Virus record (IMG/VR): IMGVR_UViG_3300046167_000002
Location: 1 to 24,117 of that record
Length of the DNA stretch: 24,117 bases
From: a virus
Direction: 5' to 3' (one strand)
Shown: positions 10,689-23,145 of the stretch, in pieces
Position numbering within the stretch: the first letter of the stretch is position 1
Layout of the letters: each line of letters begins with the position of its first letter
Made by a program: the position numbers and the translations under genes
The notes under the pieces: model-generated
The model's database searches: none
What the model saw: the letters and a program-made list of their open reading frames with translations, nothing else
Told to the model about the DNA's origin: nothing

Positions 10689-11760
10689 TTAAGCAGCGTT
10701 GTATACTGCAGTAACCAGAGCCTCTGGACGTAGAATTTTACGCCCGTAAAGGTGCATACCGCGAACAATATCAGCGAATGAATCTGGGTCACGGTAAGTC
10801 TCAACTTTGTTGAGTTGCTGTGCAGAAGCAACAGCAGAATCGTGTCCAGCTACAATAACGCCATAGTTATCGTCCTGTGCAGTTACGCCTGTAGTACCAG
10901 CGCCAGTACCCTTCGCAGGAAGGTTGTTTGACTGATAGATACGGAAGCCATGCAAGTTGTTAAGTACCAGACCGTTTTGCAGTCCTGCACCACCGAAGTC
11001 AGCGTTCAAAACGCGAGAATCTTCGTCTTTTAATAGCTCCATGAATACCGGGTCAACACACAGCCAACGCCCACGAGTATCAACATTAGCCTGATCAAGT
11101 ACACGGCTCATACGAGCTACGACTTGCAAAGGTGTTGCTGTGGTTGCTGATGCAGCAGTTGCACCGCCAAAGCGAGGGAGCCAACGGAATTGAGTCACCA
11201 GTTGTACCTGCAGAAGCAGAAGTAGTGATGTTTCCGAAGTCTGACATATCCAACTTGTTAGCAGTCAGAAGTTCACCTGTCAAGTCACCCGCTGTTTGGT
11301 GTGAAGCAGTGCCGCTTACAGCACTAATTACCGCACCAGCAGTAGTGTAACCAGACATGTATGACAATACGTCAGCATCCATAGCATCAGCCATTTTATA
11401 GGCTGCACGATCAGATGATAAACGCATGAAGTCATGGTGGGCTTGCTGCTCTTCAATATCGTCAAGCTTGAAGGCAAAGTAGTTGGCTTTGTCGATAGTC
11501 AACTGAAAGTCATTATCAACGAGGTCTTGCGCCGAAACGGTAGTACCACGTAGCAATGCATTCACTGTGATATCAGGCTCTTTAAGAATGCGAACCGTAT
11601 CACCTTGGTTTGCGATCTCCCCGAAATACTCAGAGTTAGTAATCGCTTGAGTTGTAGCAGCCTTGCGAAACGCAATTTGTGCTTGCTTTGAATAGATGAC
11701 GCTAGAGAATACTCCGTTGTCAAGGTTGGTATAGCTTCCAGCTTTTCCAAATGCAGCCAT
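10689..11760 (-). CDS. Major capsid protein, broken by one +1 frameshift
   Basis: ATG at 11760 is preceded by AAGGAG. The first frame gives residues 1-195 (MAAFGKAGSYTNLDNGVFSS, SKQAQIAFRKAATTQAITNS, NALLRGTTVSAQDLVDNDFQ, IEEQQAHHDFMRLSSDR), then derails after GDSIPLAP. Skipping the T at 11175 continues RFGGATAASATTATPLQVVA, then VDTRGRWLCVDPVFMELLKD and ends GRKILRPEALVTAVYNAA, total 356 aa, a normal length for an HK97-fold coat. Layout after scaffold and before a terminator-like hairpin agrees. The shift site reads CCC-T-CGC, a possible +1 slip site, but insertion error is simpler. The unshifted product would end at 221 aa. Confidence 0.85.
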
Positions 11761-11986: not shown

Positions 11987-12936
11987 TTATTTTGACAAAT
12001 CATATACAAACTTACCAGCTTTCTGAGCTTCATGTATCTCTTCGTGGTGCTTCTCAAACTCTTTGTCACTCATTTTAGCAACAGTAGATTCACGCCAGAA
12101 GTTCTTACTATCATCTCCATTTACGGTAGTTCTGCTTTTACTCTTTACAGAAGAGGCTGCTGCCTTATCTGCGCTGTTATTAGGTTTAGACTTAATACCC
12201 TTGTGGGACTTATACAAGTCGATAGCTACTGCTACAGACTTAGCATCCTCAGAGTTCTCGTATAGAGCATCCTGTACAACTTTAGGTTGTTTCTCTGCCC
12301 AGTTATGAAACTCATCTGAGGAGCGGATCTCTTCAAAGTCAGGGTGTAAAGACATAAGCTCTGCTTCAGCTTTTTCTTTCTTAGCTTGTGTGCGTAGCTC
12401 TTCTATTTCTTTGAGGCGACTATCCAAAGAAGGAAGCTTTTTCAGCAGCTTTATTCTCTGCGATAGCTTCAACAATACCAGCGACATCAGGGTACTTAGA
12501 TGACCAAGCCTCAATCTCTTCCTTAGACTTGGGAAGAACCAGTTCATTCTTAGTAGCTTTATCAAGTTGACCCTGTAGCTTTTCAAACTTGGCATCCCAG
12601 TCCTTTTCTTTAGTTTGTAGGAGTTTACGGATATCACCATAGCGCTTCTTGAAAGACTTCTCTTCAGCGCTTAATCCATCTGACTCTGTATCAACTTCTT
12701 CAGACTCTTTGGATTCCACAGACCGTGTTTCTTTTTGTTCCGTATCACTCTCATCTGAAACTTGGGTGTTCTCAGCGCTTTGGCTATCGGGTTCCTGATT
12801 ATCTTCTGCTTCTTCATCGACCTGCTCACCCTTGATGAGTGCCTCTAGTTCGCGTTCCTTCTTTCTCAAGCAACTGTTGGTTGCGATCATGTGCGTAGCT
12901 GTCTGCTTTAATAATAGTTTGTTCTGCCATTGACAT
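11987..12936 (-). CDS. Scaffolding protein, broken by two +1 frameshifts
   Basis: The likely start is ATG at 12936 (MSMAEQTIIKADSYAHDRNQ, AAAGGA upstream). The frame must shift once after 25 codons (near 12861: GAG AAA G AAG) and again near 12431. With both extra bases removed a 315-aa protein results. It is highly acidic early (GEQVDEEAEDNQEPDSQSAE), followed by helical, charged sequence (KSFKKRYGDIRKLLQTKEKD, SSLDSRLKEIEELRTQAKKE) and a basic helical end (KEFEKHHEEIHEAQKAGKFV). Acidic N-terminus, coiled coil and basic C-terminus suit phage scaffolds, and the gene directly precedes the capsid gene, as in T7 (gp9 before gp10). Confidence 0.75.
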
Positions 12937-17708: not shown

Positions 17709-19307
17709 TTAATATCCAAAGCTGGGGTCAGAGGCTTGAAACCCTGATCGTTGAGTTGCAGGGTTGTAGTCCCATATAGAACTTCTAGGTCTTGTCATTA
17801 TACCATACCTTAGAGCGTCATACAAGTGGTCTTCTGCATTTGTATCAACGTCCTCTGGGTTTCTTTTATCTAGAGGGATAGAGGGTAGTTGAGCTATTGT
17901 GTTGGTACAGTTAGCGAAGAATACAAGTCTAGGCTCTTCTGTATGCTCATCTACCTGTAACCGCCTGTGCATCTCGTTCTTACCTGCTACACGAGAGCCT
18001 CTAGATCTATCTGAGGGACGCCAGCGGCAACCCTTCATATTCATTTGTTCAGCCAATGACGGGCCAGTATCACCACGCTTGTGCCATAGAGAACTATCCA
18101 AAACACCATATCTAATTGTGCCATCTTCTGCCTCTGCATCTAGTATCATGTCAGCTAAATCAGTAGCTGTAACCTTAGAACAATATAACTCTCTGTAGAC
18201 AACAAGCTGCTCACTGGGTGATACAGCAATCCAGACAACGCCTGTGTAGCTTCCGTAACCGTAGTCGCAAGCTCTAAACTTAGTCCAGCTTGAGGGAATT
18301 TTAAAAGGCTCCACGACATGTATGGCTCTGTTCCACTCAGGAAAGGCTGCACCTTCATTGACATCCCAGTTACCTTCTAGTAGTTGCTTACGTTGATGCT
18401 CTGGTAGCGACAGAAGCATTGCCTCATAGTCGCCACTCTCTGCTAAGTAAGGGTTATCAAATAAACTAGCAGGTATAAACCTACGCTTAAACAGTGACTG
18501 CCCAGCCTTAGAGTGACCCGCTGGATACTTAATCTCTTCACCTGTCTCGATATTAGTAGCCCAGAAAGCCTCACCATACTTAGCAGGATCAATAAACATC
18601 TTCTTAACCCATGAGTGACCGCTGCCACCGGGGTTAGTTGTCGCTCTCATGTAAAGACCTAACTCCATTGAACTAGCAGATCTCAAGCGACTCCTCATAT
18701 AATCCCAAGCGAAAGGTGTAGGCCATTGAGTAAGTTCATCGAACCCAATCCAGTTAAACGCCTGACCCTGATATCTCGTAACGTCCATGTCCTTATCAAG
18801 ATATGACATCCACAGTCTACCACCTCTAGGTGAAATCCACTGAGACTTACGTTCAGACCACTTGATTCCCGGTACAGCACGAGGATATAACTCCTGAGAT
18901 TTTTGTATAAGTTCCCTTAGTTCTTCTGTAGTGTGTCGTACTAACAACCCGCTAAAGTTGGGGTGGTTTAAACCATGTAGAGGGTCAGCAAGCATAGCAT
19001 ATGACTTACCACCCCCAGCACTACCCCCATATAAAACTTCACGCTCAGATGAACTAAGAAAGTCTGTCTGAGGGCCGGGGTTAGGTTTAAACACGACATC
19101 CTGTGCTACCTCGACATCAAACTCAGGAGCCTTAACCTCTGCAGGAACAGTTGTAGGGGGAGTAGCGACTGTCTCTGTCTGGTTAGCTTTCTTCTGAGTA
19201 CGCCCCGACCCTGCCTTTTTCAAGCTTCTCGATTTCCGCGAGGGTTTCTTGGAGCCTTTTGGCAAGTCTGCGTTTAATAATAACTGCTTTTTTACGTCTT
19301 CTGTCAA
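17709..19307 (-). CDS. terL: Terminase large subunit
   Basis: A 532-aa frame as drawn. The ATPase has QTDFLSSSEREVLYGGSAGG with Walker A GGSAGGGKS (94-102), Walker B NWIGFDE (185-191) and coupling motif ATTNPGG (222-228). The RNase H-like nuclease has CDYGYGSYTG (Asp348), GVLDSSLW (Asp404) and EDHLYDALRYG (Asp493 and Asp497). It cuts and translocates DNA into the prohead. The start is unsure: 19307 is a TTG inside the previous gene, and no ATG precedes Walker A. A GTG at residue 72 is possible, or the frame could join the preceding ORF after one removed base. Portal follows after two bases. Confidence 0.92.
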   Translation of the reverse strand: MTEDVKKQLLLNADLPKGSKKPSRKSRSLKKAGSGRTQKKANQTETVATPPTTVPAEVKAPEFDVEVAQDVVFKPNPGPQTDFLSSSEREVLYGGSAGGGKSYAMLADPLHGLNHPNFSGLLVRHTTEELRELIQKSQELYPRAVPGIKWSERKSQWISPRGGRLWMSYLDKDMDVTRYQGQAFNWIGFDELTQWPTPFAWDYMRSRLRSASSMELGLYMRATTNPGGSGHSWVKKMFIDPAKYGEAFWATNIETGEEIKYPAGHSKAGQSLFKRRFIPASLFDNPYLAESGDYEAMLLSLPEHQRKQLLEGNWDVNEGAAFPEWNRAIHVVEPFKIPSSWTKFRACDYGYGSYTGVVWIAVSPSEQLVVYRELYCSKVTATDLADMILDAEAEDGTIRYGVLDSSLWHKRGDTGPSLAEQMNMKGCRWRPSDRSRGSRVAGKNEMHRRLQVDEHTEEPRLVFFANCTNTIAQLPSIPLDKRNPEDVDTNAEDHLYDALRYGIMTRPRSSIWDYNPATQRSGFQASDPSFGY

Positions 19308-19602: not shown

Positions 19603-19974
19603 CTACTCATTCTTCCCTTCTTTGGGGGGTAAGTAAAATATACCGCCGCCTCCTGAAGTTACATCAACCTTGTCTACCTTGCCTAGCCCAGCGCGATCAA
19701 GTAAATCTTTCGCTGCAGCCATCTTATCACGAATACCTAACTCAGTAGGGTCATACAGTGCCTGTGTCATAGCCATAGCTGCTTTAGGTGCAGTACGAGC
19801 AAACCAAGTACGTGTCTTCTCACCTATCTCATCCTTTAGAGACTCGACAATAAGAGAAGTGGAAGTACCATCTCCATAGCCAGCTAACTTCTTAGCCTGT
19901 ACAACATCTCCATTAGCCTCATCAAAGAGAACCTCTAGAAACTTCTGTTGTTTATCTGTCAATGATCTTGCCAT
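19603..19974 (-). CDS. terS: Terminase small subunit-like protein
   Basis: A 123-aa protein starting MARSLTDKQQKFLEVLFDEA, with NGDVVQAKKLAGYGDGTSTS. This is the L-T-x-K-Q-x-x-F-x-x-x-L...A-x-x-A-G-Y signature of TerS helix-turn-helix domains (residues about 5-45). Helices ESLKDEIGEKTRTWFARTAP and ELGIRDKMAAAKDLLDRAGL follow, then a Gly-rich end with GIFYLPPKEGKNE. It binds the packaging site and regulates TerL (family knowledge). ATG overlaps the previous stop (TAATG). It ends in TAG directly before the helix-turn-helix-like gene. Confidence 0.75.
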   Translation of the reverse strand: MARSLTDKQQKFLEVLFDEANGDVVQAKKLAGYGDGTSTSLIVESLKDEIGEKTRTWFARTAPKAAMAMTQALYDPTELGIRDKMAAAKDLLDRAGLGKVDKVDVTSGGGGIFYLPPKEGKNE

Positions 19975-20435
19975 TATAACGTCCTTAAGTAAATCAAACC
20001 TACAAAGCTACCTGTAATAACTAGGAACAACACAAAACCTGCTGTCCACTCTACAATCTTACGCTTCATCTCTATACGTTTGTGATCATGTTCTTTCTTT
20101 TGTTTGCGGATATCAGCCTCAATACGTAGAAGCTCTTCCCAATGTGAAGGCCCATACATTACACATATGTAATCCTTGAGTTCCTTCCTCATAGACTCAG
20201 CTTTCTTCTTAGCTGCGAATATCTCCATTGCTTCTGCTTGAACGCCACCACCAAGGGTTTTATACCAAGGTGGTTTAGCGTTCTGTCTATCAGCAAAGTC
20301 TAAGTCACTTATGGCACCAGCCCACTGTGTAAGCTGACCACCCATGTCTTGTAAGTCTTTACCTACCGCAATACCCTTCTTAAGAGCATTAAATGCGGTT
20401 GTGGCTAAACCTATAGCGGTTACTGGATCTATCAC
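19974..20435 (-). CDS. Membrane-anchored protein next to TerS (153 aa)
   Basis: I choose GTG at 20435 (MIDPVTAIGLATTAFNALKK) because AGAGGGGG lies about 9 bases upstream and DPVTAI starts of this type are known in marine phages. An ATG at 20498 would add 21 residues without a clear ribosome-binding site. Helical stretches are GKDLQDMGGQLTQWAGAISD, AAKKKAESMRKELKDYICVM, and RIEADIRKQKKEHDHKRIEM. One membrane segment (TAGFVLFLVITGSFVGLIY, about 130-148) is near the C-terminus. The gene sits in the place of lysis genes in T7, but topology (C-terminal anchor) is unlike a usual spanin or holin. Function unknown. Confidence 0.65.
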   Translation of the reverse strand: MIDPVTAIGLATTAFNALKKGIAVGKDLQDMGGQLTQWAGAISDLDFADRQNAKPPWYKTLGGGVQAEAMEIFAAKKKAESMRKELKDYICVMYGPSHWEELLRIEADIRKQKKEHDHKRIEMKRKIVEWTAGFVLFLVITGSFVGLIYLRTL

Positions 20436-20550
20436 TGTAGGAACCCCCTCTTCTAAGTCCACTACCTGTTTGTCTATCTGTATCACCTGATGATACATTA
20501 GCTAGAACAGTAAGGCTTAGAATAAGGGGTAATTCCTTAACTAGGTTCAC
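20389..20550 (-). CDS. Small secreted-looking protein overlapping the membrane protein gene (53 aa)
   Basis: Starts at GTG 20550, which overlaps the DUF1127 stop as GTGA. Residues 1-17 (MNLVKELPLILSLTVLANVS) look like a signal peptide; the rest is polar, Ser/Arg-rich (SGDTDRQTGSGLRRGGSYSD, ending FSHNRI). It overlaps the start of the membrane protein gene in another frame by about 47 bases. No Cys is present, so it is not a lipoprotein. Nested secreted and membrane proteins recall Rz/Rz1 layouts, but the missing lipobox argues against it. I recognise no family. Confidence 0.45.
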   Translation of the reverse strand: MNLVKELPLILSLTVLANVSSGDTDRQTGSGLRRGGSYSDRSSNRYRFSHNRI

Positions 20551-20696
20551 TGTTTAATGCCATAAACACGACCGTATATCTCCCCTCTTGAGATACCCAT
20601 ATCATGTAGTTCTTTGTCTCTCATGTTCATCAGAATCCAGTAGTCTGCTCGACGCTGTTGATGATCCTGAATACGTGTTAGTAAGTTCTTAAACAT
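20547..20696 (-). CDS. Phage-encoded DUF1127 (YjiS-like) protein, 49 aa
   Basis: ATG at 20696 with GGAG 8 bases upstream; the product is MFKNLLTRIQDHQQRRADYW, then ILMNMRDKELHDMGISRGEI, then YGRVYGIKQ. The pattern R-x-x-x-x-x-L-x-x-M-x-D-K-E-L-x-D-M-G-I-S-R-x-x-I is the DUF1127 domain (Arg-rich, in many proteobacterial small proteins, some of which bind RNA and affect small-RNA metabolism or stress response). The gene is preceded by a hairpin that includes the ribosome-binding site and is followed, with overlap, by the 53-aa ORF. A phage copy might reshape host RNA handling or metabolism; that is inference. Confidence 0.7.
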   Translation of the reverse strand: MFKNLLTRIQDHQQRRADYWILMNMRDKELHDMGISRGEIYGRVYGIKQ

Positions 20697-20699
20697 AGC

Positions 20700-20730
20700 A
20701 CTATCTCCTTATGTTGTGTGCGGAGATAGT
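20700..20730 (-). promoter_or_regulatory. Perfect 9-bp hairpin masking the DUF1127 ribosome-binding site
   Basis: In the transcript ACUAUCUCC and GGAGAUAGU form a perfect 9-bp stem with a 13-base loop (GCACACAACAUAA). GGAG of the Shine-Dalgarno lies wholly in the stem, and the AUG starts three bases after it. This should reduce initiation unless unfolded by a ribosome, protein, or temperature. It could double as a 3'-end stabiliser for the preceding gene. Structure read by eye. Confidence 0.55.
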
Positions 20731-20777
20731 TATACTTATTTATGGGTTGAGTAGTAGATACAAAATGTGCATACCCG

Positions 20778-21143
20778 CTATCTGTTAGGGTTATAGTACT
20801 GCCTTACTGAGATAAACGCCTCTAAGCTACTAGAAGCACCATCAAATGCTAAGATTTTATCACCAGCATGTAGGTGTATCCTATCAGAGCCTATAACATT
20901 ATATACGTCCTTACCAGCTATAGACTTATCATTTATCAAGTGGTGGTACGTACTTGTGTCTGCGTGATACCACTGAATCGTAACATTCTGAGTAGATGTA
21001 GACCCATTCGTTACATGTAGAAAGTCTATGGTTGCATCGTGATTAGGTGGACACGTATAAATCAAGTTAGCACTAGCACCACCTGAAGTAGCAGTAATGG
21101 TTACTGATTCTGTATCTGTTGTAAAATCACGAGTGGTAACCAT
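20778..21143 (-). CDS. Small beta-rich structural protein (121 aa)
   Basis: A 121-aa protein: MVTTRDFTTDTESVTITATS, GGASANLIYTCPPNHDATID, FLHVTNGSTSTQNVTIQWYH, then HLINDKSIAGKDVYNVIGSD, IHLHAGDKILAFDGASSSLE and AFISVRQYYNPNR. The beta-sandwich pattern (CPPNHDATIDFLHVTNGS, LHAGDKI) resembles small virion proteins such as the 117-aa one at 8855-9208, so it may decorate the capsid or tail. It lies at the end of the small-gene string, four bases after the 99-aa gene. Function inferred by pattern only. Confidence 0.5.
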   Translation of the reverse strand: MVTTRDFTTDTESVTITATSGGASANLIYTCPPNHDATIDFLHVTNGSTSTQNVTIQWYHADTSTYHHLINDKSIAGKDVYNVIGSDRIHLHAGDKILAFDGASSSLEAFISVRQYYNPNR

Positions 21144-21146
21144 TTA

Positions 21147-21446
21147 CTAGGCTTTCTTCTTAGCTGGTTTCTTCTTAGGAGTCACAGCCTTCTTTACTTT
21201 AGTAGTCCATGCTTCATTCTCAGGTGTACTAGGGTCATCCTTAATATAGTGACCCTTATCGTTTCTAGCACGTACAACTTCTACTTCCTGTGTACACACC
21301 TTCTCGACAAACTCATCTTTATACCAAACGACACCATAAGCACCTTCACCAGCAATAGGGTTACCACCAGCATTACGTACAGTATCAGACTCTACTGTGT
21401 ATCCAGCCTTCTCTAGGGCTGCTTTATGCTCTGTGAATACACTCAT
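21147..21446 (-). CDS. Small basic protein with Lys-rich tail (99 aa)
   Basis: A 99-aa protein: MSVFTEHKAALEKAGYTVES, then DTVRNAGGNPIAGEGAYGVV and a Lys-rich tail (KKAVTPKKKPAKKKA). The N-terminal part looks compact and acidic/neutral; the tail is like histone or nucleic-acid-binding tails. It overlaps the previous gene by one base (TAATG). DNA or RNA binding, perhaps in the virion or in genome organisation, is possible but not shown. No known family is recognised. Confidence 0.55.
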   Translation of the reverse strand: MSVFTEHKAALEKAGYTVESDTVRNAGGNPIAGEGAYGVVWYKDEFVEKVCTQEVEVVRARNDKGHYIKDDPSTPENEAWTTKVKKAVTPKKKPAKKKA

Positions 21447-22899: not shown

Positions 22900-23145
22900 C
22901 TACTTCTTTCCAGCTTTACTATTACGAGGGAAACTACGGTTAGCCTTCTTAGTCGTTACACGTAGGTTAGACTTAGAGTTATCGTGAGGGTTACCATTCT
23001 TATGGTCAACATCCTTACCGTCACCCTTCTTAACTTTACCAGCAGCCTCTAACTTACGTCGAGCCTTCTTACGGGCAGCATTACGAGCCAACTCTCTAGG
23101 AGTACTCTGTAATTGTCGCTCTCTCTTGTAGTCTCTACCTGCCAT
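22900..23145 (-). CDS. HNH-like (His-Me finger) small protein (81 aa)
   Basis: An 81-aa basic protein: MAGRDYKRERQLQSTPRELA, RNAARKKARRKLEAAGKVKK, then GDGKDVDHKNGNPHDNSKSN and LRVTTKKANRSFPRNSKAGK. The part D-V-D-H-K-N-G-N-P-x-D-N-S-x-S-N-L-R-V matches the HNH motif core (DH...N...N). HNH proteins next to terminases in other phages assist cleavage of packaged DNA, but this one is small and may be degenerate. ATG lies inside the end of the previous gene (11-base overlap). Confidence 0.65.
   Translation of the reverse strand: MAGRDYKRERQLQSTPRELARNAARKKARRKLEAAGKVKKGDGKDVDHKNGNPHDNSKSNLRVTTKKANRSFPRNSKAGKK

Follow-up and report, generated by a model that had tools for sequence, protein, structure and literature searches.

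The locus studied here raises the question as to why a marine phage should carry a 49-aa DUF1127 gene just ahead of its terminase genes, and how the expression of this gene might be controlled. The window, i.e., the whole stretch of 24,117 nucleotides analyzed, is a 24-kb virus record. Since its TerL is 83–85% identical to those of the Roseobacter phages CRP-603 and CRP-2, the window is a fragment of an HMO-2011-type podovirus; the two features defining membership of this group, close TerL kinship and a shared gene order around TerS/TerL, were both found, the gene order being that of the HMO-2011-type CRP roseophages (PMC9038755). Phages of this type have been reported as a marine viral group that is dominant and widely distributed (PMC9038755). 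No mention of DUF1127 was found in that paper on the CRP-series roseophages, and none of the papers searched deals with a phage DUF1127. The features of the locus are listed in Table 1.

Table 1. Position of the features of the DUF1127 locus and of the neighboring terminase genes in the window.
Feature	Position	Strand	Basis and remarks
Terminase large subunit (TerL), marking the HMO-2011-type group	17709..19307	minus	Profile and identity matches
Terminase small subunit (TerS)	19603..19974	minus	phrog_2538
DUF1127 gene, 49 aa, ATG start	20547..20696	minus	ORF list; PF06568 above cut-off; homologues
Hairpin 3' arm, GGAGATAGT, including the Shine-Dalgarno sequence	20700..20708	minus	Fold z = -3.8
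Hairpin loop, 13 nt	20709..20721	minus	Folding; length differs among relatives, which sometimes carry a nested hairpin
Hairpin 5' arm, ACTATCTCC, ending at the predicted +1	20722..20730	minus	Folding and comparison of leaders
-10-like box TATAAC (octamer TATAACTA)	20729..20734	minus	Fixed spacing to the CGGG box; predicted +1 near 20722
Upstream box CGGGKWTGCA (window: CGGGTATGCA)	20768..20777	minus	Conserved DNA element, directly 3' of the upstream gene's stop

A DUF1127 gene ahead of the terminase genes

A sequence-only reading had proposed that the 49-aa ORF encodes a DUF1127 protein, that it has a good ribosome-binding site and that it is easily missed, without giving its strand. The Pfam search bore out the identity: the protein (MFKNLLTRIQDHQQRRADYWILMNMRDKELHDMGISRGEIYGRVYGIKQ) matches PF06568 along the whole profile (1–37 of 37; E = 1.6e-5; 25.0 bits as against a curated cut-off of 23.3), and it also matches PHROG 26566, a group of unknown function (E = 3.3e-4). 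The Shine-Dalgarno (SD) sequence AAGGAG located 8 nt 5' of the ATG agrees with the second claim, and the fact that the CRP-13 copy sits in an unannotated gap illustrates the third. In that reading, the gene was placed between structural and terminase genes; it does adjoin the terminase genes, while the structural nature attributed to the upstream neighbor (20778–21143) was not upheld. The late expression assumed in that reading is putative; what the sequence gives is the position in the leftward arm, immediately ahead of TerS/TerL.

Homologues were identified on hundreds of IMG/VR contigs, 285 relatives being recovered in a single protein scan, and PF06568 was matched by all 50 diverse relatives analyzed. 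All 11 CRP isolates surveyed carry exactly one gene with a match above the cut-off, always upstream of the terminase genes, and the search for stop codons in the relatives, which would have spoken against the gene, yielded none. Purifying selection on the phage gene is indicated by its pN/pS ratio (about 0.19–0.22 in 67 sequences). In 60 diverse phage sequences, the L-x-D-[IM]-G-[IL]-x-R core is present with L30, D32, and G34 invariant, and D27, R37, and I40 are kept in at least 90%. The window protein adds a new member to a family already known, and one relative has been annotated as such before: among the relatives inspected, the GenBank label "DUF1127" occurs only in CRP-603, most of the others being labeled "hypothetical." In the complete genome of CRP-603, the replication genes run rightward (1–20 kb), and the arm with the terminase and structural genes starts at the opposite end and is read leftward, with DUF1127 about 4 kb into this arm and right before TerS and TerL. 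DUF1127 is absent from HMO-2011, ctYwJ313, the two SAR11 phages HTVC033P and HTVC115P, phiM6, and RHph_N3_19.

The window protein resembles the bacterial DUF1127s (CcaF1 of Rhodobacter sphaeroides, the SDPs of Agrobacterium tumefaciens, and YjiS of Salmonella and Escherichia coli) in the extension of the domain over the full profile, its size class, its D-[IM]-G-[IL]-x-R core, and its richness in arginine, but it is phage-encoded, has a different regulatory leader, shows only 33–47% identity with the closest bacterial copies recovered, and stands apart from the bacterial rows in a weakly resolved tree. These last two points led us to reject a recent pick-up from the host. DUF1127 was found in 97 of 241 alphaproteobacterial genomes, those listed without a match being often small; a link between the DUF1127 content of the phages and that of their hosts is only suggestive.

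Several other features of the window and its relatives were noted. A 53-aa GTG ORF (20389–20550, minus) shares nucleotides with the stop codon of DUF1127 and with the start of the following gene (19974–20498), and many relatives have a counterpart within 0–18 nt on the 3' side of DUF1127; this may possibly be a coupled or overlapping gene, or merely shared sequence. A small HNH endonuclease gene (22900–23145, minus) lies upstream of DUF1127 in the same arm, and the ORF at 21147–21446 (minus) shows a sub-threshold Pfam match (18.7 vs. 27 bits) to Tad6, an inhibitor of type I Thoeris. The ORF at 11095–11760 (minus) matches a major head protein profile at its N-terminal part only and overlaps its neighbor (10689–11198); from their sequences, these look like a single coat-protein gene split between frames, as does the stretch at 11987–12890, and the splits may be either frameshifts in the record or real. 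In the marine myophage Melnitz, a Methylophilales phage (L304), DUF1127 is grouped with other small genes that follow ribonucleotide reductase and is not accompanied by the CGGG element described below.

The promoter-like element

The sequence-only reading had passed over the most unusual feature of this locus, namely a hairpin which covaries, occludes the ribosome-binding site and has a 5' strand coinciding with a DUF1127-specific promoter-like element. Although the genes of the CRP isolates are otherwise packed, a noncoding gap occurs 5' of DUF1127 in every one of them, and these gaps share CGGG(T/G)(A/T)TGCA, about 33 nt, and TATAAC. In 90 non-redundant leaders, the distance from the start of the CGGG box to the -10-like box is 42.7 ± 0.55 nt, whereas that from TATAAC to the ATG is 44.8 ± 10.3 nt; since the former is fixed and the latter variable, TATAAC is placed like the -10 box of a promoter, and the CGGG box lies at about -55 to -46 relative to the predicted +1. 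The octamer TATAACTA recurs in TTGACA-N16/17-TATAACTA promoters of other genes in related phages. No promoter was called at the element in a consensus promoter scan of the window, and most of the leaders lack a clear -35 box, so that the promoter activity of the element is assumed. In the subgroup consisting of CRP-1, -9, -13, and -345 and their relatives, a second TATAAC occurs about 15 nt upstream at sigma70 spacing (TTGCAT-N17-TATAAC).

The element proved to be specific to DUF1127. When 13 complete phage genomes were scanned with the relaxed pattern CGGGKWTKCM-N28-37-TATAAY, exactly one copy was found in nine of them, always right 5' of DUF1127; CRP-212 and CRP-235 carry near variants, the pattern was absent from the DUF1127-less genomes of HMO-2011 and ctYwJ313, and the reversed pattern, used as a control, gave zero matches. 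A DNA-only scan of 2.9 million IMG/VR viral contigs yielded at least 120 matching stretches, and a DUF1127 ORF lies immediately downstream in 110 of the 120 matches listed, the ten others looking like unrelated chance matches in coding sequence. The pattern did not occur in any of 240 alphaproteobacterial genomes. With this specificity among the matches listed and the genomes scanned, a general phage or host promoter is rejected, and missed DUF1127 genes can be traced by using the element as a signature in the DNA.

It might be asked whether the element is a plain promoter of the late operon, serving the terminase and structural genes, with DUF1127 as a passenger and the hairpin merely insulating the first cistron. 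DUF1127 does head the leftward run of these genes, and TerL lies downstream of it in 163 of the 164 loci for which enough sequence was available. However, such a promoter would be expected to stand before other genes at times, which is at odds with the IMG/VR scan and with the lack of the element in the two phages devoid of DUF1127, and in many phages several genes separate DUF1127 from TerS. We therefore regard this explanation as unlikely.

The CGGG box (20777–20768 in the window, and in the relatives) is often an imperfect palindrome (GCATAnCGGGTATGC) located exactly at the stop codon of upstream genes which differ from one phage to another, and might therefore serve in addition as an activator site or mark a boundary of recombination.

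The hairpin and the switch proposed

In the leaders, the strand running from the -10-like box to the predicted +1 is complementary to the SD sequence and often also to the start codon. The arms of the window hairpin (ACTATCTCC / GGAGATAGT) have their equivalents in CRP-212 (TATAATTACCTTCA / TGGAGGTAATTATG), CRP-9 (CTACTCCT / AGGAGTAG), and leader L130 (GACATGGTATAACT / AGTTATACCATGTT); CRP-235 is an exception, its 5' arm being upstream of the -10 box, which is itself in the loop. Helices reached p ≤ 0.05 in comparison with shuffled sequences in 65 of the 90 non-redundant leaders, and a strong single helix was not found in about 25. In most of the 90, the 5' arm does not extend beyond about +1; in some (e.g., L007, L084, L136, L157, and L165), it runs 2–7 nt past the predicted +1. 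When SD regions were swapped between these leaders, the own pairs stood out (z = 14.5) only for the segment around TATAAC, while z ranged between -1.2 and 0.5 for four control segments. At offsets 8–12, compensatory changes (TA/CG/GC) were observed. The stem sequences and the loops vary freely and the pairing alone is kept. These sequence comparisons establish the covariation of the hairpin and its register with the -10-like box. In four complete genomes with about 60–66 SD-preceded ORFs, DUF1127 ranked first by SD-helix score in three and second in the remaining one.

According to the folding predictions made on 89 leaders, the pairing of the SD amounts to 0.86 in read-through RNA, 0.37 in RNA starting at the element, and 0.58 when the arm is shuffled, and the SD is more open in the locally started RNA in 81 of them. 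In the window, it is predicted to fall from 0.9996 in read-through RNA to 0.28 in RNA starting at the predicted +1. In the stretch separating DUF1127 from the upstream gene, no terminator-like site was seen on the minus strand. A known RNA family or riboswitch in the window was also considered and rejected, as no Rfam family was found there at gathering threshold.

The explanation that we favor, with moderate confidence, is that the DUF1127 gene has a dedicated regulatory unit which keeps read-through mRNA silent, translation being confined to mRNA begun at a promoter of the gene itself. The promoter-like element of fixed geometry (CGGG box, about 33 nt, TATAAC) stands 5' of the gene, its -10 to +1 strand doubling as the 5' strand of the hairpin which hides the SD and often the start codon. 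Transcripts continuing from genes upstream in the leftward arm would carry the two strands and fold, leaving DUF1127 untranslated; in RNA begun at the element, the 5' strand would be wholly or mostly gone, the SD would be open, and DUF1127 would be made. We infer the activity of the element as a promoter, the time at which it fires in infection, the existence of read-through transcripts, and the switching in vivo.

A precedent exists in T4, where gene e (lysozyme) and I-TevI have a late promoter inside the 5' strand of a hairpin sequestering the ribosome-binding site (review PMC3014915). Here too, a hairpin of this kind has a promoter-like 5' strand, and in silico, read-through would yield a silent RNA and the local start an open one. 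As regards the hiding of the SD/AUG in read-through RNA, the predictions agree with the T4 arrangement (z = 14.5; 0.86 vs. 0.37), and as regards the position of the putative promoter, the -10-like box is at a fixed distance from the CGGG box and the arm ends at about the predicted +1, apart from the second upstream -10 in one subgroup. The gene and the phage are unrelated to those of T4, however; the -10 looks sigma70-like (TATAACTA), while that of T4 late promoters is TATAAATA, and the phage DUF1127 unit adds the upstream CGGG box at a fixed distance. In Sinorhizobium meliloti, duf1127_1 is likewise under the control of a leader RNA, but the mechanism is a uORF-dependent transcription attenuation (PMC12218461), as against an SD-occluding hairpin in the phages, and no uORF was seen in the leader of the window gene. 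As far as our searches show, a DUF1127-specific promoter/hairpin unit has not been described so far; it is well supported by the sequence comparisons.

The main weak point of the switch is the second TATAAC of the CRP-1 subgroup, since RNA starting there would keep the hairpin. This keeps autoregulation alive as a rival: the hairpin might be a constant part of the DUF1127 mRNA, at which DUF1127 itself (or RNase E/III) would bind or process the RNA, with feedback control like that of T4 gp32, gp43, and RegA and that of CcaF1 on its own transcript. The almost exclusive association of the element with DUF1127 would fit such feedback, and CcaF1, an RNA-binding DUF1127 protein, processes the RNA of its own operon with RNase E (PMC10253847). 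On the other hand, the freely varying stems and loops hold no conserved loop motif, feedback does not require the 5' arm to stop at the predicted +1, as it usually does, and the -10-like box keeps a fixed distance to the upstream box and not to the ATG; autoregulation therefore seems improbable to us. That the inverted repeat might be a DNA operator bound by a repressor or activator, with incidental RNA pairing, is highly improbable: although it overlaps the -10/+1 region, a common place for operators, and the CGGG box is clearly a motif at the DNA level, the arms have neither a common half-site sequence nor the fixed spacing of half-sites, the loop sometimes contains nested hairpins, and the position of the 3' arm follows that of the SD and the AUG.

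A DUF1127-like gene preceded by a predicted SD-occluding hairpin (CCTTTTTGGT.../ACCAAAAGG) and devoid of the CGGG element was observed upstream of position 1501 in the unrelated T4-like Sinorhizobium phage phiM12 (L305), as a single case.

Possible roles of the protein

Reports on bacterial members of the DUF1127 family describe binding to RNA or to sensor proteins (PMC10253847, PMC12501420). CcaF1 of R. sphaeroides binds RNA and acts in RNA turnover (PMC10253847), whereas no evidence for RNA binding was obtained with YjiS of Salmonella (PMC11707872). The phage protein, in which 6 of the 49 residues are arginines, may be an RNA-binding protein of the CcaF1 kind which alters the RNA turnover of the host (or of the phage) at a sharply timed dose, although we put forward this role with low confidence: it is taken over by analogy from a single relative, and for others it is disputed. 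Such a role in RNA turnover, toward which the sequence-only reading had pointed in suggesting that a phage copy could redirect host RNA metabolism, is made plausible by the fact that the related isolates infect Rhodobacteraceae, the family to which R. sphaeroides belongs. CcsR-like sRNA genes directly 3' of DUF1127, which are a trait of CcaF1/CIN1, were not found in the window, where there was no Rfam match and protein-coding ORFs follow.

By analogy with other bacterial members, the phage protein might instead bind the host sensor kinase PhoR and set the phosphate uptake of the host, since the DUF1127 proteins of A. tumefaciens and E. coli bind PhoR and those of several species complement an A. 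tumefaciens mutant (PMC12501420). The related phage CRP-603 also encodes a phosphate starvation-inducible protein. However, phoH is widespread in marine phages anyway, and PhoR binding strikes us as rather unlikely.

Returning to the switch, the conservation of a single DUF1127 copy, together with a covarying lock on its expression, suggests a dedicated factor for host takeover, the timing of which is important to the phages, and a counterpart of the T4 hairpin-promoter trick in an unrelated marine phage lineage. As a tentative proposal, this widespread marine phage group may have evolved, independently of the T4 examples, a one-gene cassette inseparable from DUF1127, in which the promoter -10 is also the strand of a translational lock, and which would deliver a phage-timed effector that reprograms the RNA turnover (or Pho signalling) of the host and would do too much harm if expressed by read-through. 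Since cultured roseophage–host pairs exist, there is a direct handle on the function of DUF1127 proteins.

The AlphaFold model of the phage protein, the input for which left out the isolate proteins, consists of a long helix and two further helices (H2–23, H27–32, and H37–48; pLDDT 82). This looks like a helix-turn-helix, but such a fold is not claimed, as the Foldseek search against the PDB gave zero matches at E ≤ 0.001; a profile search of the PDB sequences yielded only weak matches to SAM-domain and L19 proteins. The subgroup including CRP-1 (L093) and CRP-345 (L005) carries a conserved C-terminal extension ending in SWRQYIYSKLGWELHKANHA.
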